A stretch of DNA of 64,000 nucleotides, from the NCBI GenBank assembly GCA_016842065.1, contig JAEPDS010000004.1, forward strand, positions 97,892 to 161,891. The letters are read 5' to 3'. Below, in pieces: positions 52,505 through 61,589 of the stretch (position 1 is its first letter; each line of letters begins with the position of its first letter). This DNA comes from Candidatus Thiodiazotropha sp. 'RUGA'. GTDB lineage: Bacteria; Pseudomonadota; Gammaproteobacteria; Chromatiales; Chromatiaceae. The position numbers and the translations under genes were made by a program. The notes beneath the pieces are model-generated. The model was not told the DNA's origin and made no database searches. It worked only from the letters and a program-made list of their open reading frames with translations.

Positions 52505-53227
52505 TTAAGACTCTTCAAACTTTCTGGCCCACTCGACCAAGTGACGACGCTCACGCGGATTGTCCACTTGATTACGGGTTGGGCTGAAGAAGACCCCGGG
52601 AATATGCAACAGCTTGCTGAATGGCAGCAAGATCATCAGCACAGCAACCAGAGTCAAATGTATCAACAGGATCGGATCCATCGGCAGCTCGCCACCGCTC
52701 AGGGTCCAGAATCCGGTAAAAAATTGCTTCACTGCCACAACATCGGTGTGGATGACAAATGTCATCATGGCGCCGCTCATGCCGATCATCAGCAGAATCA
52801 GCAGCCAGAGGTAATCGGATGGTGCAGAGATATAGCGAACCCGGTCAACGAAAATGCGTCGAACCAACAGACCCGCCAGACCCGCAACCATGGCAAAGGC
52901 AGCATACTTACCGAAGGGCTGGATCAACTGGATCGGCAGCCATACAGGATCGATGAAGTAGCGCACATGTCTCAGCAGGACCAGGAAAAGCCCCATGTGG
53001 AACATCCAGGAAAAGATCCAGGTCCACTTGGTACTCTTGAACAGACTCTCAAAGAGCACAACTTCGCGAAACAGTCTGAAAACAACCCCGGTCTGAGTCA
53101 CAGGCGCCGGAGTCGTGGGAATCTTTAGTGGTGCAGGTGTCTTGGCATACTGGACGATTTTTCTCGCCAAGCCAATTACCAGAACGATGGTCGCTACGAT
53201 AAACAGCAACGCGTAGACAGATGACAT
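52505..53227 (-). CDS. dsrM: DsrM, NarI-like b-type cytochrome
   Basis: A 240-residue membrane protein with about five spans resembling NarI. Histidines suited to haem b lie in MFHMGLFLVLLRHVRYF and in LIHLTLVAVLMILLPFSKLLHI. It exchanges electrons between the quinone pool and DsrK. It is separated from dsrC by 78 bp containing a very stable hairpin. Confidence 0.94.
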   Translation of the reverse strand: MSSVYALLFIVATIVLVIGLARKIVQYAKTPAPLKIPTTPAPVTQTGVVFRLFREVVLFESLFKSTKWTWIFSWMFHMGLFLVLLRHVRYFIDPVWLPIQLIQPFGKYAAFAMVAGLAGLLVRRIFVDRVRYISAPSDYLWLLILLMIGMSGAMMTFVIHTDVVAVKQFFTGFWTLSGGELPMDPILLIHLTLVAVLMILLPFSKLLHIPGVFFSPTRNQVDNPRERRHLVEWARKFEES

Positions 53228-53262
53228 GTTCCTGCGTTCCTCAAGTGTTGGTCTGATTCACC

Positions 53263-53290
53263 GGCGGGTGAATGCCAGCATTCACCCGCC
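53263..53290 (-). ncRNA. Very stable hairpin between dsrC and dsrM
   Basis: GGCGGGTGAATGC and GCATTCACCCGCC form a perfect 13-bp stem around two nt, 15 nt past the dsrC stop. No T-run follows on the minus strand, so it is not a classical terminator; it may protect the dsrC 3' end or be a processing site. Confidence 0.85.
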
Positions 53291-53305
53291 CAGTGCATAG
53301 GTCTC

Positions 53306-53638
53306 TTAGATACAGCCAGTAGGCTTAGGCAGACCGGCGAAACGGCAAGCCTGCTTACCAGGGCCATATGGGAAAAGGGCATACAGGTATTTAGAGTTGC
53401 CTTTCTCCTTACCCAGCTTCTTACCAACAGCTTTGGTTAGAACGCGCACGGCTGGAGCAATCTGGTACTCTTCATAGTACTCACGCAGGAAGTTGATGAT
53501 CTCCCAATGCTCACTGGTCAGCTCGAGGTCATCCTCTTTCGCCATAACTTCAGCAACTGCAGGCTCCCATTCGCCCAGGTTGGTCAGGTAACCCTCTTCA
53601 TCAGTTTCGAAGGTCTTACCATTTGCTTCGATAGCCAT
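53306..53638 (-). CDS. dsrC: DsrC, sulfur carrier protein
   Basis: A 110-residue protein that carries sulfur on its flexible C-terminal arm, as substrate of DsrAB and partner of DsrEFH and DsrK. Both conserved cysteines are present, C98 (QACRFAG) and C109 (TGCI), at the canonical spacing of ten residues between them. The helix-turn-helix-like LTSEHWEIINFLREYYEEY segment is typical. Good ribosome site GGAGAG. The stable hairpin just after its stop suggests separate mRNA stability. Confidence 0.97.
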   Translation of the reverse strand: MAIEANGKTFETDEEGYLTNLGEWEPAVAEVMAKEDDLELTSEHWEIINFLREYYEEYQIAPAVRVLTKAVGKKLGKEKGNSKYLYALFPYGPGKQACRFAGLPKPTGCI

Positions 53639-53681
53639 ATTTTCTCTCCAAATTACGTTACAGAGTTGTTCAGTAAACTAA

Positions 53682-53987
53682 TCAGACCCAAGCCTGTACT
53701 TTGTCGTTCTCCGCAGAGAGGGCGACAAACTTGGCATAGTCCACGATTTCGATACCATCAACGACCTTGTCTTCAGCGACACCGCGCGCTTTCAGGTCGG
53801 GGCCCAGTACATAGAAGCTGACACCGCTGGCTGCGGCTATCTTGTCAGCGATCGCTGTGCCTTTGATCGCACCATAGATACCATCTTCATACATCAGCAC
53901 GGCACTGCCCTGTTTGGCATAGCCCAGACAGCTGTCCATAGAAGACTTCTCGAAAGGTGATTTATTGACTGTGTGTAGCGTGCTCAT
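53682..53987 (-). CDS. dsrH: DsrH, sulfur relay subunit
   Basis: A 101-residue TusB-like subunit of the DsrE2F2H2 sulfurtransferase. The start at 53987 has GGGG eight nt upstream and places the conserved cysteine at position 20 (SSMDSC), as in A. vinosum. Pattern GSAVLMYEDGIYGAIKG and FYVLGPDLKARGV are typical. It lies between dsrF and dsrC. Confidence 0.95.
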   Translation of the reverse strand: MSTLHTVNKSPFEKSSMDSCLGYAKQGSAVLMYEDGIYGAIKGTAIADKIAAASGVSFYVLGPDLKARGVAEDKVVDGIEIVDYAKFVALSAENDKVQAWV

Positions 53988-54002
53988 TATCAATACCCCA
54001 AA

Positions 54003-54413
54003 TTAGAAGCTAAACATGACATCTTGTTCTTCCATGATGTCTGCCAATTCAGCACGACTCACAACTTTGATCGAATCCTTCTCGGCCCAATCATCGTCTT
54101 CGTCTTCATAGGTGAGCGGCATCAGGTCATCAAGTGTCAGACCACGCTCTTCGAGAGACTCTTTCTCGACGAACAGCTTGGTCACATCGTAATCACCCAG
54201 TGCCTGGTATGTTGGGGAGAAGTTCTTCATGTCCACCTCAGCGGTGTCCTGCCCCTTTACCAACTGATATACACCGTCATCCAGGAAAGCCAGACTTACG
54301 TCCTGGTCAAACGCTGCCCCAATCAACACAACTTCCAGTGACTCCCAGGCATAGATGGTGCCATAGGGAGCACGGCGGTTGAGGTACATGAATTTTTTAA
54401 TCTGCTCAGACAT
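54003..54413 (-). CDS. dsrF: DsrF, sulfur relay subunit
   Basis: A 136-residue TusC-like subunit of DsrEFH. The start at 54413 (MSEQIKKFMYLNRRAPYGT) follows AGAGG. The core YAWESLEVVLIGAAFDQDVSLAFLDDGVYQLVKG is conserved. No cysteine is present, as expected for this structural subunit. Ten bp after dsrE. Confidence 0.95.
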   Translation of the reverse strand: MSEQIKKFMYLNRRAPYGTIYAWESLEVVLIGAAFDQDVSLAFLDDGVYQLVKGQDTAEVDMKNFSPTYQALGDYDVTKLFVEKESLEERGLTLDDLMPLTYEDEDDDWAEKDSIKVVSRAELADIMEEQDVMFSF

Positions 54414-54429
54414 GATCAACCTCTATGCT

Positions 54430-54822
54430 TTAATCACCGAAAACCACCAGTCGCTCGGACTGAATGCCCGCTTCGACCAACTGCCCGAGACCGGAGATAC
54501 GAAAGTTGTCAGCGATGTTTTCAGCGTCCTTTCCGTTACGCTGCATCTCACCTTCATCAACGATGCCGCGACGCTGGGCTGCTGCAACGCAGACAACCAT
54601 GTCGAGATCGTATTTTTTCGCCAGTTCCGACCACCGGTTGACGATATTACGATCATCCTGTGGCGGGGTTGTGAGCTTGGTACCGTTATTCACACCGTCG
54701 TGATAGAAGAAGACACGCATCACTTCGTGCCCACTTTCCAGCGCGGCTTTGGTGAACTGGTACGCTGAGTCCGTAGCCTGATGTTGGTACGGACCTTCAT
54801 TTACCTGAATCGCAAATTTCAT
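54430..54822 (-). CDS. dsrE: DsrE, sulfurtransferase subunit
   Basis: A 130-residue TusD-like subunit that carries persulfide to DsrC. The active cysteine is C78 in DMVVCVAAAQRRGI, the same position as in A. vinosum DsrE. Typical N-terminus MKFAIQVNEGPYQHQATDSAY. Presence of the complete DsrEFH with DsrC points to the oxidative direction of the pathway. Confidence 0.96.
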   Translation of the reverse strand: MKFAIQVNEGPYQHQATDSAYQFTKAALESGHEVMRVFFYHDGVNNGTKLTTPPQDDRNIVNRWSELAKKYDLDMVVCVAAAQRRGIVDEGEMQRNGKDAENIADNFRISGLGQLVEAGIQSERLVVFGD

Positions 54823-54866: not shown

Positions 54867-55937
54867 TTAGAAACGGATGTGAGCAGAGGCATTCAGGTTG
54901 CTACGACCACCACGCCAGTTATCGATGTGATACTTGGTGAAAGGCAGACCGGTCTTCTCGAAGAATTTTGGCCAACCGATGCGATCAGCCCACTCACCGA
55001 TGCGTTCCCAATCCTTGGCGTCTTCTTTATAAGCGCTGAGGATCTGCTTAACGATGGTAGAAACTTCAGGCCAACGTGGTGGGTTGTTCGGTACGCCGGC
55101 AGCTACCAGTTTATGGAAGGTCGGCTTGGAACGGGCATTGGAGTTCTTACCACCCACCCAGATCGCGAACTTGGAGTGCTCTGGGTCGTTGATCTGCATT
55201 GGCGGACATGGCGGAAAGCAGGCGCCGCAGCAGATACATTTCTTTTCGTCAACTTCCAGAGAAGGCTTACCGTTAACCATCGCAGGACGAATCGCAGCAA
55301 CCGGGCAACGGGCAACAACCGAAGGACGCTCACAAACATTGGCCACTTGGCTGTGATCAATCTTCGGCGGCTTGGTGTGCTGGATGTTGATCGCGATATC
55401 GCCCTGGCCACCACAGTTGATCTGGCAGCAAGAGGTGGTGATACGCACACGGTTAGGCATCTCTTCCTTTACGAAATCGTCGTAGAGGTCATCCATCAGT
55501 GCTTTTACAGCACCGGATGCATCGGTACCCGGGATGTCGCAGTGCAACCAACCCTGGGTGTGAGAGATCATGGAGACCGAAGGACCGGTACCACCGATCG
55601 GGAAGCCTTCCTCATTCAGTTTATCGATCAGCGGCTGAACCTTGGATTCATCACCGACCATGTACTCGATGTTGGAACGGATGGTGAAGCGAACGTAGCC
55701 TTCCGCATACTCATCTGCAATGTCCATCAGCTTACGAATGGTGTAGAGATCCATCTGACGCTGAGTACCGGCACGCACTGTCCAGATACTGTCACCACTC
55801 TTGGCAACATGACGCAGGACACCAGGACGCAGGCGCTCATGCCAGGACCATTGGCCATAGTTTTTCTTCAGGACGGGGTGCAAGTAGGGCTCCATCTCCG
55901 GGACGCCACTCTCGATCGGCATACGAGGTTCCGACAT
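54867..55937 (-). CDS. dsrB: Dissimilatory sulfite reductase (reverse type), beta subunit
   Basis: A 356-residue subunit of the sirohaem enzyme that oxidises DsrC-bound sulfur to sulfite. The start at 55937 (MSEPRMPIES) has GGAGG upstream. Sirohaem/4Fe-4S cysteines appear in RITTSCCQINCGGQGDIA and a ferredoxin site in CICCGACFPPCPPM near residue 240. The substrate region RFTIRSNIEYM is conserved. Pairs with DsrA in the cytoplasm. Confidence 0.96.
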   Translation of the reverse strand: MSEPRMPIESGVPEMEPYLHPVLKKNYGQWSWHERLRPGVLRHVAKSGDSIWTVRAGTQRQMDLYTIRKLMDIADEYAEGYVRFTIRSNIEYMVGDESKVQPLIDKLNEEGFPIGGTGPSVSMISHTQGWLHCDIPGTDASGAVKALMDDLYDDFVKEEMPNRVRITTSCCQINCGGQGDIAINIQHTKPPKIDHSQVANVCERPSVVARCPVAAIRPAMVNGKPSLEVDEKKCICCGACFPPCPPMQINDPEHSKFAIWVGGKNSNARSKPTFHKLVAAGVPNNPPRWPEVSTIVKQILSAYKEDAKDWERIGEWADRIGWPKFFEKTGLPFTKYHIDNWRGGRSNLNASAHIRF

Positions 55938-56041
55938 ACCTACCTCCAAAAAAATAGGGTAATTGATTCGTTTTTAGGGGCATCCGGGCGATCCCGGTGC
56001 CCCCATTGAAAACTGCTGCTTTCAGTCAGCAGAAGACAAAA

Positions 56042-57283
56042 TTATTGCGCTTTACGTTCAGCCCATTTGCCCGCTTCTTCATCCCAGCCATCCATGCGGA
56101 CATAGGGATTCATACGCGGACGCTCGATCATATTAGGATCGATATCCAGGCCGACGCCTTCGAGGAAGTTGACCAAGCCGATACGCTCGATCATCTCACC
56201 GGTACGCTCATGCTCCAGCGCATTCTCTGCGAAGAAGTCGAGGATCTCGGTGGCCAGCTCTTCCAGGGTTTCAAAGTCCTCATCAGACTCAAGCTTCATG
56301 AAAGGTACGATAACCGTACCCATCAGGTCGCCGATCTTCAGAGTACGCTTACCGCCGCACAGCAGGGTAACGCCTTTGTCGTCGCCGGGAGAGAGCGCTT
56401 TGTTCATCACGTTGATGCAGTGCATGCAACGGACGCAGGAGGGGTTGTCCACTGCCAGGGTGTCGTCATCATTCAATGACAGGGCCTGGGTTGGGCAACG
56501 GGTGATCACATTGTCGATAACATATTTGCGACCTTTCTCGCCGACGAATTTTTTCACTTCGTCCTGATCGACTTTCATGTCATCGCGCCAGGTACCAATG
56601 GTAGCCAAGTCAGCACGCTGTACAGAGTTCATGCAGTCATTCGGGCAACCGGAGACTTTATATTTGAACTTGTAAGGCAGTGCTGGGCGATGCATATCGT
56701 CAAGGGCGTTGTTGACCAGCATGCGCATGGTACGACCCTCGTCGAAGCATGAGTTTTCGCAGCGTGCCGCACCAACACAGGACATTCCGGTACGTACCGC
56801 AGGACCGGCACCACCGAGATCAAAACCCATTTCGTTGATCTCGTCGAATGCAGGCTGAACGTTGTCAGTGGTACAACCCTGGAACATGATGTCGCCAGAC
56901 TGACCATGGAACGCAATCAAACCGGAACCGTACTTTTCCCAGATATCGCAGAATTTGCGAATGGTGTCGGTATCGTAGTGCATGCCAGGAGGCGGCATGA
57001 CACGCAGAGTGTGGAATTCAGCAGCGGCAGGGAACAGTGCCTGGCCGTCATCACCTTTCAATTCGGTAAAACGGGGAATGATACCACCGCCGTAGCCGAT
57101 AACGCCCACAGTACCACCTTTCCAGTAGCCTTTGCGGGTTTCGTAAGAAGTCTCCAGCTGACCAAGCAGGTCAACCATCATATCGTTGTCTTTGGCGAGG
57201 CGCTTGAGGCCGGTAACGAATGAGGGCCAAGGGCCACTCTCCAGCTGATCAAGCATGGGGGTATCATGCATCTGTTTTGCCAT
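56042..57283 (-). CDS. dsrA: Dissimilatory sulfite reductase (reverse type), alpha subunit
   Basis: A 413-residue subunit. The start at 57283 (MAKQMHDTPM) is chosen because GGGAG lies eight nt upstream, inside the longer frame. Sirohaem-cluster cysteines are in MSCVGAARCENSCFDEG and SGCPNDCMNSV; the ferredoxin domain has CPTQAL and CVRCMHCINVM. DsrAB with DsrEFH, DsrL and DsrN in the same cluster indicates the oxidative (reverse) form. It heads the 14-kb operon, and a 440-bp region with an inverted-repeat operator lies upstream. Confidence 0.97.
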   Translation of the reverse strand: MAKQMHDTPMLDQLESGPWPSFVTGLKRLAKDNDMMVDLLGQLETSYETRKGYWKGGTVGVIGYGGGIIPRFTELKGDDGQALFPAAAEFHTLRVMPPPGMHYDTDTIRKFCDIWEKYGSGLIAFHGQSGDIMFQGCTTDNVQPAFDEINEMGFDLGGAGPAVRTGMSCVGAARCENSCFDEGRTMRMLVNNALDDMHRPALPYKFKYKVSGCPNDCMNSVQRADLATIGTWRDDMKVDQDEVKKFVGEKGRKYVIDNVITRCPTQALSLNDDDTLAVDNPSCVRCMHCINVMNKALSPGDDKGVTLLCGGKRTLKIGDLMGTVIVPFMKLESDEDFETLEELATEILDFFAENALEHERTGEMIERIGLVNFLEGVGLDIDPNMIERPRMNPYVRMDGWDEEAGKWAERKAQ

Positions 57284-57298
57284 CACTGTTTCTCCCAA

Positions 57299-57736
57299 TG
57301 GTCGTTTATCGAGGTCGTCAGCATTTTCTACATCCTAATTTTTCTTGGCTGAGAACCAAGTTGTAGAATCTGGCCACCGACCCGCAATCTTAACCTCACA
57401 GGCAGGGCCTGTTTCTACTGGCCGACAAGTTTAGAGTTTCCTAATGCTCACCCATATCCTTCCGATGGGAGAGACAGGGATAGAAACATCTATCCCAAAT
57501 GGGATAGGTAATCAGCGTTCAACAAGCATAATTTAAACGCTGTTAGCTGTATAACTTCCGCAATCACAGCGAGTTATAAACCATTCTCAATTTACTCGAT
57601 TAAGTAAATATCCCATTATTTTTTTAGGGGAGAGATTTACACGATTTCACTGCAAATAGGACTTGAACCCAACTTAAGCATATTGTTCAATAGTAATATC
57701 CTAGCGTTTTACTAAGTAATTAAACGGATAAAAAGT
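57299..57736. promoter_or_regulatory. dsrA / orphan-Cas6 module divergent control region
   Basis: About 440 bp between dsrA (minus) and the 58-aa ORF (plus), AT-rich from 57510 to 57730. It holds CCCAT/ATGGG (57451-57469) and three GGGATAG half-sites (57477-57483, 57490-57496 inverted, 57501-57507) plus CTTGG/CCAAG at 57344-57360. GGGCCTGTTTCTACTGG near 57405 resembles a repeat end. Promoter hexamers could not be fixed by eye. Confidence 0.6.
57477..57507. promoter_or_regulatory. Three-half-site GGGATAG operator upstream of dsrA
   Basis: GGGATAG-AAACAT-CTATCCC-AAAT-GGGATAG. The last two half-sites are a perfect 7-4-7 dyad. It lies 194-224 bp before dsrA and 230 bp before the divergent ORF. 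Confidence 0.65.
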
Positions 57737-57913
57737 ATGCTGTACCTGAGCGAGATCATGATGCAACATCCAGAGGTTGAGAACTTTGAGCAACTGCTGA
57801 GTGTTGTCAAAGAGCGATCGAAAACGGAGGTATTCTTCCGTATCGACGTCAAACCACCCTTTGCAGATACCCCTGAGAATTGGGAAGATCGCCTTGAAGC
57901 AGCCTTCACCTAG
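57737..57913 (+). CDS. Small protein (58 aa), first ORF divergent from dsrA
   Basis: A 58-codon frame opening with MLYLSEIMMQHPEVENFEQL and ending DTPENWEDRLEAAFT. Acidic, amphipathic and free of cysteine; no membrane span. The ribosome site is weak (GATAAAAAG). It is 53 bp upstream of the 236-aa gene on the same strand, and its composition is protein-like, so it is called with moderate confidence. No family recognised. Confidence 0.5.
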   Translation: MLYLSEIMMQHPEVENFEQLLSVVKERSKTEVFFRIDVKPPFADTPENWEDRLEAAFT

Positions 57914-57966: not shown

Positions 57967-58677
57967 GTGAAGTATTTGGAATCAGAAACCTTTCTCGGAG
58001 ACAGCGAAAGCGCTGAAGATGCTGTCAAATCAAGCAAGCTTCTCGAAGTTAAGCTGCAGGAGATCCGCCAACAACTCGAGGCGCTCGATACAGACAGTGT
58101 CTCTGCACAACGCCTCTCACTGGAGATTGAGAGCTGCTATATCCTGCTCGATCTGGATCGCAACGATGAAGCCTGGCAGATCGCCAAGCGCGTGTTTGAC
58201 GGAGCGCTCGCATCTGAGCTCTGGCTGGCGGCGGTGGAGGCGTGTGACGTGCTCTACCAGGCGGAGAAGGAAGATGGTCCCAAAGCGCTGGCTCACGGTA
58301 TCTGGCTGGGGGTCACCTTTCCCGTCGACCCTGAACTCAGCGTAGCCATGTTGCAGCATCTGATCGACGAAACACCGGATAAATCGGATGGCGCTGCGGT
58401 GGCGGCGGCAACCGCCTGCTACATCGTCGACCTGCGTGCCGAGGGGCAGACCCAGGAAGACCTCAGGTTTTTCACCAACCAGCTGATGGGCCAGGTTGCC
58501 AGACGCCACAGCCAGGTGGAAGAACAGGAGATCTTCGATTTCTGGGTGGAGCGCATGGAGCTGGACGATCCGGCCAAATTTCTCCCCCGGCTGGCCACGG
58601 TGCTCGATGTGATCATCGATGGAGACTGGTGGTATGACCGGGATGACTTGCGCAGTAAAATACCGGCAGAAGCCTGA
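57967..58677 (+). CDS. Helical protein of unknown function beside the orphan Cas6
   Basis: A 236-residue, soluble, almost entirely helical acidic protein (start GTG 57967). Repeated helix pairs such as CYILLDLDRNDEAWQIAKRVFDGAL and ELWLAAVEACDVLYQAEKEDG suggest a TPR-like scaffold, but no strict TPR consensus is visible. It is followed at 12 bp by the Cas6-family gene whose ribosome site lies just past its stop, so they are co-expressed. No catalytic motif. Confidence 0.75.
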   Translation: MKYLESETFLGDSESAEDAVKSSKLLEVKLQEIRQQLEALDTDSVSAQRLSLEIESCYILLDLDRNDEAWQIAKRVFDGALASELWLAAVEACDVLYQAEKEDGPKALAHGIWLGVTFPVDPELSVAMLQHLIDETPDKSDGAAVAAATACYIVDLRAEGQTQEDLRFFTNQLMGQVARRHSQVEEQEIFDFWVERMELDDPAKFLPRLATVLDVIIDGDWWYDRDDLRSKIPAEA

Positions 58678-58689
58678 TTGGAGTTGAAT

Positions 58690-59349
58690 ATGTTCTGGCA
58701 GGAAGAGCAGGATGAGGAACGGTTTGTCGTCCCGGACAATGTCCTGGATCTGCTGTTCAAGATCAACTGCCCCACCCTTCCCATCGATCACGCCTGGGCT
58801 TTGTCGCAGGCAATCCAGCAGGCCCTGCCCTGGTTTGCCGATGAACCGAATGCCGGTCTGCATCTGATCTACGGGGCGGATTCGGGTAACGGCTGGGAGC
58901 GTCCATCCGGCGGCGACCAACTGCTCTATCTGTCGAGACGCACGCCACTGGCACTGCGCCTGCCCAACCGTCGCATTGAGGATGCCCAGGTACTCAGCGG
59001 ACAGACCCTGGACATCGACGGCCACACGCTGGAGATCGGTAAATCCCATACCCGTCTGCTCGGCATGACCACGACCCTCTATTGCCGCCATCTGCTCGCC
59101 TCGGAGAATCAGTCGGAAGATGAATTCCTGCAGCAATCGGTGGATCAGCTGAAAGCCCTTAATCTGAGTTTTAAAAAGGTGCTTTGCGGCAAAGGGGAAC
59201 AGTTTGAGACACCGGAGGGACCGCTGAATACGCAAAGCCTGATGGTGGCAGGCCTACCCCTGGATGATGCCGTCACACTCCAGGAGGAGGGGTTGGGGCC
59301 ATTACGCACTCGCGGCTTTGGCTTGTTTAATCCACACAAGACTGTTTAA
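58690..59349 (+). CDS. Stand-alone Cas6/Cmx6-family protein (type I-MYXAN Cas6-like)
   Basis: A 219-residue protein that I assign to the Cas6/Cmx6 (TIGR02807-like) group, endoribonucleases that cut CRISPR precursor RNA. The pattern fits along its length: DLLFKINCPTLPIDHAWALSQAI at 20-42 (H34 a candidate catalytic residue), GLHLIYG, GDQLLYLSRRTPLALRLP at 75-92, LSGQTLDIDGHTLEIG, and the C-terminal Cas6 glycine-rich loop EEGLGPLRTRGFGLF at 199-213. ATG 58690 is seven nt after GGAG. No CRISPR array or other cas gene is in the window. Recognition is from memory of the family and needs a profile search. Confidence 0.8.
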   Translation: MFWQEEQDEERFVVPDNVLDLLFKINCPTLPIDHAWALSQAIQQALPWFADEPNAGLHLIYGADSGNGWERPSGGDQLLYLSRRTPLALRLPNRRIEDAQVLSGQTLDIDGHTLEIGKSHTRLLGMTTTLYCRHLLASENQSEDEFLQQSVDQLKALNLSFKKVLCGKGEQFETPEGPLNTQSLMVAGLPLDDAVTLQEEGLGPLRTRGFGLFNPHKTV

Positions 59350-59501: not shown

Positions 59502-59846
59502 ATGTCATATGAAGTAAACGGTAATACAATCGAAGCCGATGCGAACGGCTATCTGGTCAATTTGACCGATTGGAGTGAAGATGTGGCCAAGGCCATTGCT
59601 GAGCAGGAAGGTGTAAGCCTGTCTGAAAAGGCATGGGAAATCATCAACTTTCTGCGCGATGAGTATATTAACAATAGCGGCAATCAGCCTAACGAGCGGA
59701 ATATGGTCAAGCACTTCAAAGGTGTCTGGACCGATCAGGGCAAGGTGGATGCGAAAGCACTCTACATCCACTTCCCCAAAGGCCCGGCCAAGCAGGCAAG
59801 TAAGATTGCCGGCCTGCCTGAAACCAAACGTAAAGGCGGTTATTAA
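59502..59846 (+). CDS. DsrC/TusE paralogue lacking the C-terminal cysteines
   Basis: A 114-residue DsrC-family protein (MSYEVNGNTIEADANGYLVNL, WEIINFLRDEYINN). The C-terminal arm reads KQASKIAGLPETKRKGGY: Ser replaces the inner cysteine and a basic tail replaces the terminal Cys, so it cannot carry sulfur like DsrC. Members of this kind have been proposed to be regulatory. It keeps the helix-turn-helix-like core. It lies 152 bp after the Cas6-like gene with its own good ribosome site (TTAGGAGAG). Confidence 0.9.
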   Translation: MSYEVNGNTIEADANGYLVNLTDWSEDVAKAIAEQEGVSLSEKAWEIINFLRDEYINNSGNQPNERNMVKHFKGVWTDQGKVDAKALYIHFPKGPAKQASKIAGLPETKRKGGY

Positions 59847-60099: not shown

Positions 60100-60774
60100 T
60101 TAGACATCACTCCACATCCGCAGCAGATTGGCATACGACTTATCCACCAACCCGGTAGTCGATTCATCAGGCCGATTCATCAGTAGATCCTCCCTCGCCT
60201 GATCAAGTTCGTAAAGCAGTTCCCGCCGCGCCGGATCGCGCACATAACTCTGTATCCAGGCCAGTGCCACCAACCTTTCGCCCCGGGTCACCTCGGCGAC
60301 ATGATGCAGACTCGACGATGGATAGATCACCGCACTGCCCGCCGCCAGCTTGACCTTCTTTTCGCCAAAGGTAGTGCGAATCACCAGCTCGCCCCCTTCG
60401 TATGTATCCGGCTCCCGAAGGAAAATGGTCATCGAGATATCACTGCGAAATCGCTGACCACTCAGCCCCATGATGGGATCATCCACATGGTCGCCATAGG
60501 TCATCCCCGAATGGTATCGGGCAAAGATCGGATCAGCCATCCGATAAGGTAGAACCGCTGAACGAAAGCTACCATTCTGCCCCATCGCGCTGGTCAAAAT
60601 CCGAATCAACAACTCCATCTGTTTCGGCGAACCTTTCAGCTCCTGATTGTTTTTGACTTTCTGTGCGGCCATGCCGGCTGTCAGCTTGCCATCGACAAAC
60701 TCTGCATCGGTGAGTATCTGATCGATCTTCTGTAGCAGAGCCGAATCGAGTAGACCATCAATTTCCAACAACAT
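60100..60774 (-). CDS. PKHD-type Fe(II)/2-oxoglutarate dioxygenase (YbiX/PiuC family)
   Basis: A 224-residue hydroxylase of the YbiX/PiuC family. The iron triad is H96-x-D98 (YGDHVDDP) and H157 (SSSLHHVAEV), with the 2-oxoglutarate arginine R167 (RGERLVAL), the same positions as in E. coli YbiX. Members are often iron-regulated and near siderophore receptors; none is close here. It follows the 124-aa gene by nine bp and starts behind TAGGAG. Confidence 0.93.
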   Translation of the reverse strand: MLLEIDGLLDSALLQKIDQILTDAEFVDGKLTAGMAAQKVKNNQELKGSPKQMELLIRILTSAMGQNGSFRSAVLPYRMADPIFARYHSGMTYGDHVDDPIMGLSGQRFRSDISMTIFLREPDTYEGGELVIRTTFGEKKVKLAAGSAVIYPSSSLHHVAEVTRGERLVALAWIQSYVRDPARRELLYELDQAREDLLMNRPDESTTGLVDKSYANLLRMWSDV

Positions 60775-60783
60775 CAGAAACTC

Positions 60784-61158
60784 CTATAGTGATTCCAGGG
60801 CCTTTTGCATCGCTTGTTCGTCGACCGGAAATGTCAGCACCGTATGCACGGCATAACGGGATTTCACCTCTTCCAGACGCTGCAGATATTTAGCGTCGAT
60901 CAGCACAACGATCCCGGCTTCGATATCGTAGCGCTGCAGGGTTGCCAGCAGGGATTCCAGATTACTCATACGATCCCGGAACTGGGGATCGGAGTAGAAC
61001 TCCGCAACAACCACCCGAGGACGATGCTTCTTCAGCCAGGACTGGGCCTTGCGCACTGAATTGACCATCTCCACCTTGAAATTGAGACGCTGATAGATGG
61101 GGATGAAATTTGGGTAACCTCCCAATTCAACCACCGCGAGTAATTCCTGATCTTCCAT
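60784..61158 (-). CDS. Receiver-like (flavodoxin-fold) protein of unknown function
   Basis: A 124-residue alpha/beta protein whose strand order resembles a response-regulator receiver: LLAVVELGGY, FKVEMVNSVRKAQSWL, RPRVVVAEFYSDPQF, GIVVLIDAKYLQRL, HTVLTFPVDEQAMQKAL. The usual phospho-acceptor aspartate is replaced by glutamate (VAEFY), and no output domain is present. It is probably co-transcribed with the dioxygenase gene. Function unknown. Confidence 0.7.
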   Translation of the reverse strand: MEDQELLAVVELGGYPNFIPIYQRLNFKVEMVNSVRKAQSWLKKHRPRVVVAEFYSDPQFRDRMSNLESLLATLQRYDIEAGIVVLIDAKYLQRLEEVKSRYAVHTVLTFPVDEQAMQKALESL

Positions 61159-61206
61159 ACGCTTGATTTTACCTTTATGAGACCCGATTATACTCCCTCG
61201 AATATT

Positions 61207-61230
61207 TCAGGGCCTGTCAACAGACCCTGA
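61207..61230. repeat. Palindrome related to the GGGCCTGTT repeat
   Basis: TCAGGGCCTGT-CA-ACAGACCCTGA is an eleven-bp inverted repeat with one mismatch in the divergent gap between 60784 and 61272 genes. Confidence 0.5.
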
Positions 61231-61271
61231 CACCGAGCTTATTTGTTTGAGTCTTAAATGCAGTCAGTACC

Positions 61272-61589
61272 ATGCAACTAAATCTTATTATTGATGACTG
61301 GTCAATGAACCTTGAAATACCGGATGGCTATATCGATGCCATGAATGACTCTTTCGAGAAAATGGATCAGGATATGAACAAGGGCTGGCAGATCGGCCAG
61401 AGATGGGTCAAAAATCCGGACAAAACACAGCGCTGCCAGTTGGTTGCAGGTAAACTGCTAACCGCCCTGGAAACCGACAATGAACAGTTGGCGATAATGA
61501 TGGGCGCTTATATCGTCTCCCGTATGGAGGGAGTCAAACGGGTGGTTATCGATAACACCGGTGAGCCGGAAGAGACCTCATTCCAGTAA
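61272..61589 (+). CDS. Small conserved-looking protein of unknown function
   Basis: A 105-residue cytoplasmic protein, helical and acidic (YIDAMNDSFEKMDQDMNKGWQIGQRWVKNPDKTQRCQLVAGKLLTALETDNEQL). One cysteine only. No family was recognised. The ribosome site is poor, but codon usage and the uninterrupted, protein-like sequence support a real gene. It is divergent from the receiver-like gene. Confidence 0.6.
   Translation: MQLNLIIDDWSMNLEIPDGYIDAMNDSFEKMDQDMNKGWQIGQRWVKNPDKTQRCQLVAGKLLTALETDNEQLAIMMGAYIVSRMEGVKRVVIDNTGEPEETSFQ

Follow-up and report, generated by a model that had tools for sequence, protein, structure and literature searches.

A Cas6-family protein encoded divergently from the oxidative dsr operon is a near-constant companion of dsrAB in sampled Gammaproteobacteria

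Cas6 enzymes cleave their substrates independently of metal ions. The oxidative (reverse) dsr cluster of purple sulfur bacteria, with the gene order dsrABEFHCMKLJOPNRS in A. vinosum, to our knowledge does not include a divergent c8-c7-cas6-rspA cluster. Nor do we know of any link between RspA and a Cas6; RspA proteins are reportedly DsrC-family proteins without redox cysteines, said to have been proposed as regulators by Venceslau et al. in 2014. The DNA analysed here, referred to as the window, is a stretch of 64,000 nucleotides from a Candidatus Thiodiazotropha genome. It contains both an oxidative dsr operon and, on the opposite strand, a small cluster that includes a cas6 gene. The dsr genes are named after those of the A. 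vinosum operon. For the genes compared (A, B, E, F, H, C, M, K) their order is that of the A. vinosum cluster, and the same order is found in about 90-100 loci. The presence of dsrE, dsrF and dsrH beside dsrA identifies the operon as oxidative, and the encoded DsrC has both Cys98 and Cys109. The relevant features are the following.

52505-54822, minus strand: dsrE, dsrF, dsrH, dsrC and dsrM, markers of the oxidative type, recognized from their translations.
54867-55949, minus strand: dsrB, adjacent to dsrA and of DsrB type by its match (93.6 bits with the dsrA model).
56042-57298, minus strand: dsrA, which belongs to the oxidative dsr operon and points away from the cluster (TIGR02064, 552 bits).
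57299-57736, no strand: putative shared regulatory intergenic region between dsrA and c8, with dyads conserved among 24 aligned sequences from the genus and its relatives.
57737-57913, plus strand: c8, head of the cluster, a conserved small protein of 58 aa with the motif DVKPPxxDTPxNWEDRLEAAF.
57967-58677, plus strand: c7, an all-helical TPR-like protein of 236 aa belonging to no named family, directly upstream of cas6.
58690-59349, plus strand: cas6, encoding a Cas6-fold protein of 219 aa (PF09559; profile, fold and purifying selection).
58789-58791, plus strand: codon for His34, a residue with which helix 1 starts and a candidate general base, invariant in alignments.
58888-58905, plus strand: NGWxRP motif (N67-P72), an insertion of the dsr clade in a low-confidence loop (alignment and model).
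59281-59328, plus strand: glycine-rich loop region (Q198-F213), typical of Cas6/RAMP proteins and common to CRISPR Cas6.
59502-59846, plus strand: DsrC/TusE-family paralogue without the two redox cysteines, RspA-like, ending in KGGY (TIGR03342, 100 bits).

Inspection of the open reading frame showed that cas6 starts at the ATG at 58690, which is preceded by a GGAG ribosome-binding site and lies 12 bases past the stop codon of the preceding gene; the cas6 stop codon is at 59347-59349. The first-pass annotation had placed the protein in the Cas6/Cmx6 family, pointing to a C-terminal glycine-rich loop and to a candidate catalytic histidine in an N-terminal helix, and profile searches bear this out. 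Searched as a 223-aa frame from 58678, the protein matched Pfam PF09559 (Cas6) with 175.6 bits (E=1.5e-51), well past the curated cut-off of 26.7. It also matched NCBIfam TIGR02807 (cas6_cmx6) with 96.8 bits (E=1.6e-27), though this is slightly below the curated equivalog cut-off of 98.85, a value that is exceeded by 111 of the 118 cas6 homologues of the class. The 219-aa form matched the PADLOC Cas6 models at E-values down to 4.5e-50, and the gene provides the sole TIGR02807 match in its own genome. The AlphaFold model (pLDDT 89.6, pTM 0.86) and its PDB matches reveal two ferredoxin-like (RRM) domains followed by the glycine-rich loop. When the model was compared with the PDB using Foldseek, the best match was 8fcj_B, the Cas6 of a type I-B CAST (E=1e-16, TM 0.80), and 38 of the 41 matches at E<=0.001, including the first 36 without a break, were Cas6, Cse3 or Cascade entries. 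The protein encoded at 58690-59349 is therefore a member of the Cas6 family by profile as well as by fold.

The same annotation had described the gene as an orphan Cas6 beside a reverse dsr operon within a sulfur-oxidation locus. The location was confirmed, yet the gene is no stray, the association being class-wide. Among 93 relatives, profile searches detected cas6 in 64 and not in 29. Its presence agreed with that of dsrAB in all 93 (64 with both, 29 with neither), where dsrA presence was read by hand from matches to the dsrA model (TIGR02064) at E<1e-20, a threshold chosen after viewing the table, and where three positive calls (G023, G031 and G045) are based on a DsrB-type match only. The best dsrA-model matches in the 29 relatives lacking cas6 had E-values of 1e-15 or weaker, a range that was also matched in 6 of 14 controls. 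In a set of 369 Gammaproteobacteria genomes, which has at least 32 genomes in common with the 93 relatives, cas6 was present in 118 and dsrA, at E<=1e-20, in 119; at this threshold the dsrA model also matches 2 of the 14 controls, both methanogens. Both genes were found in 111 of these genomes, cas6 only in 7, dsrAB only in 8 and neither in 243 (phi 0.907, Fisher p=7e-75). The curated dsrA cut-off was passed by 58 of the 93 relatives and by 112 of the 369 class genomes. Chance is excluded as an explanation because 64 of the 93 relatives and 118 of the 369 class genomes carry cas6.

Most of the discordant genomes are interrupted close to the genes concerned. In the seven genomes with cas6 only, the contig ends 0.07-2.5 kb upstream of cas6, which is the usual side of dsrA, or starts inside dsrA (G374), and six of the seven have an RspA-like gene near cas6. 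As for the eight with dsrAB only, the contig ends at dsrA or at most 1.9 kb upstream of it in G127, G136, G167, G180, G263 and G410, the G294 assembly is 55% complete, and in G267 the upstream sequence is present and does not contain cas6. The gene is single-copy in its carriers, and in two of them (G033 and G320) it is in two pieces. One copy was found in 22 of 22 sampled members of the genus, the genome studied here included, and in 55 of 58 sampled members of the family, with one member having the gene in two pieces. Among the best 80 of 544 loci the closest named relative is Candidatus Thiodiazotropha endoloripes (87% identity), followed by other Thiodiazotropha, which are clam symbionts, and by Sedimenticola and relatives. 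In sampled Gammaproteobacteria cas6 is thus a near-constant companion of dsrAB.

This companionship was not seen in other classes. Among the 51 dsrA-positive genomes of a phylum-wide set, cas6 was present in none of the 48 that belong to other classes, and the three of the same class all have cas6 beside dsrA. Six of 22 regions from 21 of the dsr-positive genomes of other classes contain dsrEFH and are of the oxidative type; the remaining 16 have dsrAB only. Since oxidative dsr operons in other classes manage in the absence of Cas6, the protein is not needed for the chemistry.

The arrangement of the genes is equally constant. In 144 Cas6 loci (the window, two further groups of 60 and 3 loci, and 80 from named genomes, with some genomes counted twice) dsrA was found in 116, and in 116 of 116 it lies upstream of cas6 in divergent orientation, with a gap of 390-4045 nt. 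When only loci flanked on either side by 6 kb or more are considered, dsrA is present in 76 of 85 and absent from 9. The cluster itself begins with c8 (128 of 144 loci), often continues with c7, which is directly upstream of cas6 in 90 of the 139 loci with room for it, and after cas6 ends with the DsrC-family paralogue, directly downstream in 106 of 129 loci. Within the same 85 well-flanked loci, other genes recur as well: a TauD-like dioxygenase precedes c8 in 38, and a PKHD-type Fe(II) dioxygenase, a 105-aa protein and a receiver-like protein, located at 60100-61589 in the window, are found in 37, 33 and 20, respectively. Neither the c8 gene (57737-57913) nor the breadth of the dsr association had been mentioned in the first-pass annotation.

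Seven locus pairs gave cas6 dN/dS values of 0.07-0.15, which is purifying selection; the values for dsrA in the same pairs were 0.02-0.09, so that cas6 evolves faster than dsrA. Distances between Cas6 proteins correlate with those between DsrAB proteins (Mantel r 0.58, 0 of 999 permutations equal or higher, 94 distinct loci), a correlation that also follows species descent and hence reflects common ancestry too. Fixed divergent geometry, recurrent neighbours, purifying selection and independence of cas1 (see below) are all properties of this cas6 gene.

We conclude with high confidence that a Cas6 has been exapted into the sulfur-oxidation gene set of Gammaproteobacteria. The best explanation of its role, to which we give an even chance, is that it serves the sulfur-oxidation regulon, either as a regulator or as an endonuclease that binds RNA. 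Its history would have begun in an ancestor of the dsr-bearing Gammaproteobacteria, where a Cas6 related to type I-MYXAN Cmx6 would have joined the oxidative (reverse) Dsr system. The protein would still bind a specific structured RNA, which it would probably cut metal-independently by means of the candidate His34. RNA binding by the window Cas6 is, in our estimation, likely; cleavage of RNA of the sulfur regulon has a chance that we put just short of even. The target would be a transcript of this regulon, either dsr mRNA or the leader of the operon that encodes Cas6, and the protein would thereby set the amount or the segmental stability of sulfur-regulon messages. The DsrC-like protein and the helical c7 would sense the sulfur state and provide the bridge to Cas6. 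Taken as a whole, a dedicated post-transcriptional circuit of sulfur oxidation, in which c8-(c7)-Cas6-RspA reads the sulfur state via the DsrC look-alike and cuts or binds RNA of the dsr regulon, is put forward tentatively.

Whether the protein cuts RNA or only binds it bears on how its conserved residues are read. His34 opens helix 1, the place of the general base in Cas6 enzymes, and from this position we assume a catalytic role. The histidine is intact at position 34 from the ATG, in the helix that had been named, and it was retained in 41 of 41 proteins in one alignment, in 136 of 136 dsr-clade proteins and in 5 of 5 CRISPR I-MYXAN Cas6. Among the 136 dsr-clade homologues R84 and R90 are likewise invariant, and K217 is retained in 135. 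Binding without cutting, which would make the protein a Cas6-fold regulator of the translation or stability of dsr messages or of its own, would fit the ability of Cas6 proteins to retain tight product binding without turnover. It would also fit the presence of clade-specific conserved elements (the NGWxRP loop, E143 and K217) outside the presumed active site. In addition, 8fcj, the closest solved relative, has Asn at the position of His34, and the histidine alone consequently proves no activity. An invariance of 136 of 136 is nevertheless hard to account for under binding alone, and we regard this possibility as rather unlikely, though one to be taken seriously.

The NGWxRP motif is a peculiarity of the clade. 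W69 was found in 133 of 136 dsr-clade proteins, while all 5 CRISPR Cas6 show a gap at the motif, as do L201-L203, the three dsr-linked members that branch off first, and the AlphaFold model has pLDDT below 50 at residues 64-69. The outgroup is thin, consisting of only five CRISPR Cas6 proteins, and the support for the dsr clade is 0.535; the direction of descent therefore rests on little. Alignment A2 used 67 of 84 sequences, leaving out the overlong L038, L059, L080 and L116, L091 with its odd length, and 12 others that are mostly near-duplicates. The long open frame of L038 was considered as a c7-cas6 fusion and rejected, as its N-terminal part does not read as c7.

The proteins encoded around cas6 are themselves restricted to this context. 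In the class search, 92 of the 93 genomes with c7 also have cas6, even where c7 sits elsewhere in the genome; c7 is absent from 26 of the 118 class genomes with cas6. Its model (pLDDT 91.3) is all-helical, with weak TPR-type matches only and no PDB match at E<=0.001. On these grounds we rejected a Cse2/Cas11 remnant, for which one member gave a Pfam Cse2 match at E=0.032. The c8 protein gave no significant family match in profile searches, and its match to Cmx8 (E=0.12) is at chance level, so that a Cmx8 fragment was likewise rejected. Of 229 genomes searched, 67 have c8, and 66 of these also have cas6, including some in which the two genes lie apart; the exception is G180, where c8 lies at a contig end. 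The DsrC-like neighbours lack both redox cysteines in 117 of 118 cases, whereas both are present in 97 of 97 true DsrC proteins, and relatives of the neighbour end in KGGY in the alignment rows inspected. We take this cysteine-less paralogue downstream of cas6 to be RspA-like.

With a TPR-like and a DsrC-family protein as neighbours, Cas6 might instead have a role that does not involve RNA, joining these proteins in the assembly or control of the Dsr complex. Its presence tracks that of DsrAB and no RNA target was found, as would suit such a role, but the glycine-rich loop, the conserved basic residues and the histidine that it has in common with RNA-processing Cas6 would then be superfluous, and we consider assembly improbable. 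The order of c8 and cas6 could also suggest a pair resembling a toxin and its antitoxin, in which the acidic 58-aa c8, small, conserved and encoded 8-340 nt (median 27) before cas6 in the 39 loci without c7, restrains a Cas6 RNase. A single copy per genome, the class-wide co-occurrence with dsr and the separation of c8 and cas6 in G089, G166 and G282 make this very improbable.

If Cas6 is an RNA-binding endonuclease or regulator of the sulfur regulon, candidate targets would be located in the dsr operon or in the leader of the cluster. Alignment of 24 sequences revealed conserved dyads at 57429-57509 of the window (TTTAGrnnTTnCTAATG, TATCCTTCCGATGGGGG and TATCCCAWWTGGGATA), which look like operators of a regulator common to both divergent units. 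No class-wide conserved hairpin was seen by eye in the c8 leader; a short palindrome there is conserved at genus level only, and the leader hairpin was dropped as a target. Strong hairpins are present in the gaps between dsrA and dsrB and between dsrC and dsrM (mean z -2.93 and -2.96 in about 100 loci, versus -0.82 to +0.3 for the other five gaps), at 55950-56041 and 53228-53305 of the window, respectively. Hairpins of -10 kcal/mol or below occur in 79 of 100 loci in the former gap and in 82 of 87 in the latter, and they vary in sequence and loop between genomes. However, oxidative dsr operons without Cas6 have them too (6 of 6 in the dsrA/dsrB gap and 4 of 5 in the dsrC/dsrM gap), while regions with dsrAB only mostly lack them (1 of 16 with a hairpin). 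They are thus common to oxidative dsr operons generally, and we rejected them as evidence for a Cas6 substrate. Neither the gap hairpins of the dsr operon nor the cluster leader yielded an RNA target of Cas6.

DsrC of A. vinosum is reported to bind to DNA lying upstream of the dsr cluster, and three additional DsrC-like genes are described for Thiodictyon, one of them numbered shortly after its dsr cluster (PMC5944118). In pyrite-grown A. vinosum the decrease in dsr message is reported to be graded along the operon, from -4.7 log2 for dsrA to -2.0 for dsrO, with dsrC as an exception (PMC11267869). This gradient fits segmental control of the message and does not implicate Cas6. Separately, the genome has a second dsrAB (G000:C23:52896-54095; L200 8358-9677), which scores 599 bits to the dsrA model, has a 5 nt gap to dsrB and no dsrEFH within the 18 kb examined. 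Genes for a solute-binding protein, a GGDEF protein and 4Fe-4S proteins are among its neighbours, together with one for a chaperone of the nitrate-reductase-delta type. Many members of the genus likewise have two strong matches to the dsrA model.

For an orphan Cas6 two explanations had been offered, service to a distant array and exaptation. The accompanying statement that the surrounding 64 kb contain no CRISPR array and no other cas gene held for the array, since a repeat scan of the window, which recovers the arrays of three of five true I-MYXAN loci, detected none. It held for cas genes among the seven neighbouring proteins, none of which matched a cas protein in TIGR and Pfam profile scans. 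Rfam gave no match at gathering score in the window. A profile search found no cas1 in the genome, which is 99.98% complete, and the cas3-core model gave six matches, all below cut-off, a model that also matches 14 of 14 controls. Neither the scan of the seven neighbours nor the genome-wide searches with the cas1 and cas3-core models revealed a type I-MYXAN operon. Array-like repeats near cas6 in two of 143 loci (L143 and L154) proved to be tandem repeats (about 42 and 55 bases) that lack spacers and are not CRISPR.

Of the 64 relatives with cas6, 36 have cas1 and 28 lack it; the latter include the one-contig assemblies G004, G015, G076 and G091. Conversely, cas1 is present in 8 of the 29 relatives without cas6. 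In a further set of 33 genomes with cas6, hand-picked for small size or few contigs, 16 have no cas1 and 17 have it, and all five genomes of 1.0-1.1 Mb have kept cas6 and lack cas1. Production of crRNA in trans for arrays elsewhere in the genome, to which the family name and the cas1 genes of 36 of 64 relatives and 17 of the 33 picked genomes might point, and which our array scan of this genome addressed for the 64-kb window, is contradicted by the absence of cas1 from this genome and 28 carriers, by its presence in relatives without cas6, by the five genomes of 1.0-1.1 Mb and by a distribution that follows dsrAB, and we hold it to be extremely improbable. The other explanation, exaptation, is strongly supported by distribution, geometry and purifying selection. 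Because this dsr companion also occurs in genomes without the CRISPR adaptation gene, a CRISPR-type enzyme seems to have been recruited to sulfur metabolism, and the window protein is almost certainly a non-CRISPR Cas6 dedicated to dsr.

It follows that a protein automatically annotated as part of CRISPR immunity is a near-constant partner of a main microbial sulfur-oxidation pathway in Gammaproteobacteria. The fact that 111 of 369 sampled class genomes exceed the cut-off of a CRISPR model (TIGR02807) indicates a systematic naming error, and public annotation will probably label these homologues as type I-MYXAN CRISPR proteins. These proteins exemplify a Cas-type nuclease that became fixed outside defence in many families, and they offer a way to study how sulfur oxidizers, among them animal symbionts, regulate their dsr genes. 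If the circuit outlined above were true, it would represent an ancient domestication of a CRISPR RNA nuclease for core energy metabolism, retained even in 1-Mb genomes; we know of no earlier example, and it would then be the first.

A word search found no mention of CRISPR, Cas6 or RspA in two papers on Dsr evolution (PMC11406059 and PMC10504309), and the available parts of PMC5944118, PMC5728499, PMC10952691, PMC8889020, PMC11267869 and PMC3397948 contain no Cas6-dsr link; a search covering mainly the open-access literature, with few subscription papers, likewise returned no report of one. Comparison with known systems places the window protein closest to two kinds of Cas6. With the Cas6/Cmx6 of type I-MYXAN (TIGR02807) it has in common a profile match over the whole length, His34, R90 and the glycine-rich loop, and its identity to five plasmid-borne I-MYXAN Cas6 proteins is 22.6-25.8%. 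The operons of those five also contain cas3, cas8a1 or cmx8, cas5 and a gene of cas7 type, and four of them have cas1 and cas2 within the stretch displayed, whereas the window Cas6 is found with dsr genes. Window-type proteins differ further in having the additional conserved residues W3, NGWxRP, E143, K163, G167 and K217. The Cas6 of the type I-B CAST (PDB 8fcj) is the best structural match and also matches by profile (E=7.4e-24), but it works in a transposon guide-RNA complex. Finally, the gene downstream of cas6 resembles RspA in encoding a protein of the DsrC family that has lost both cysteines.
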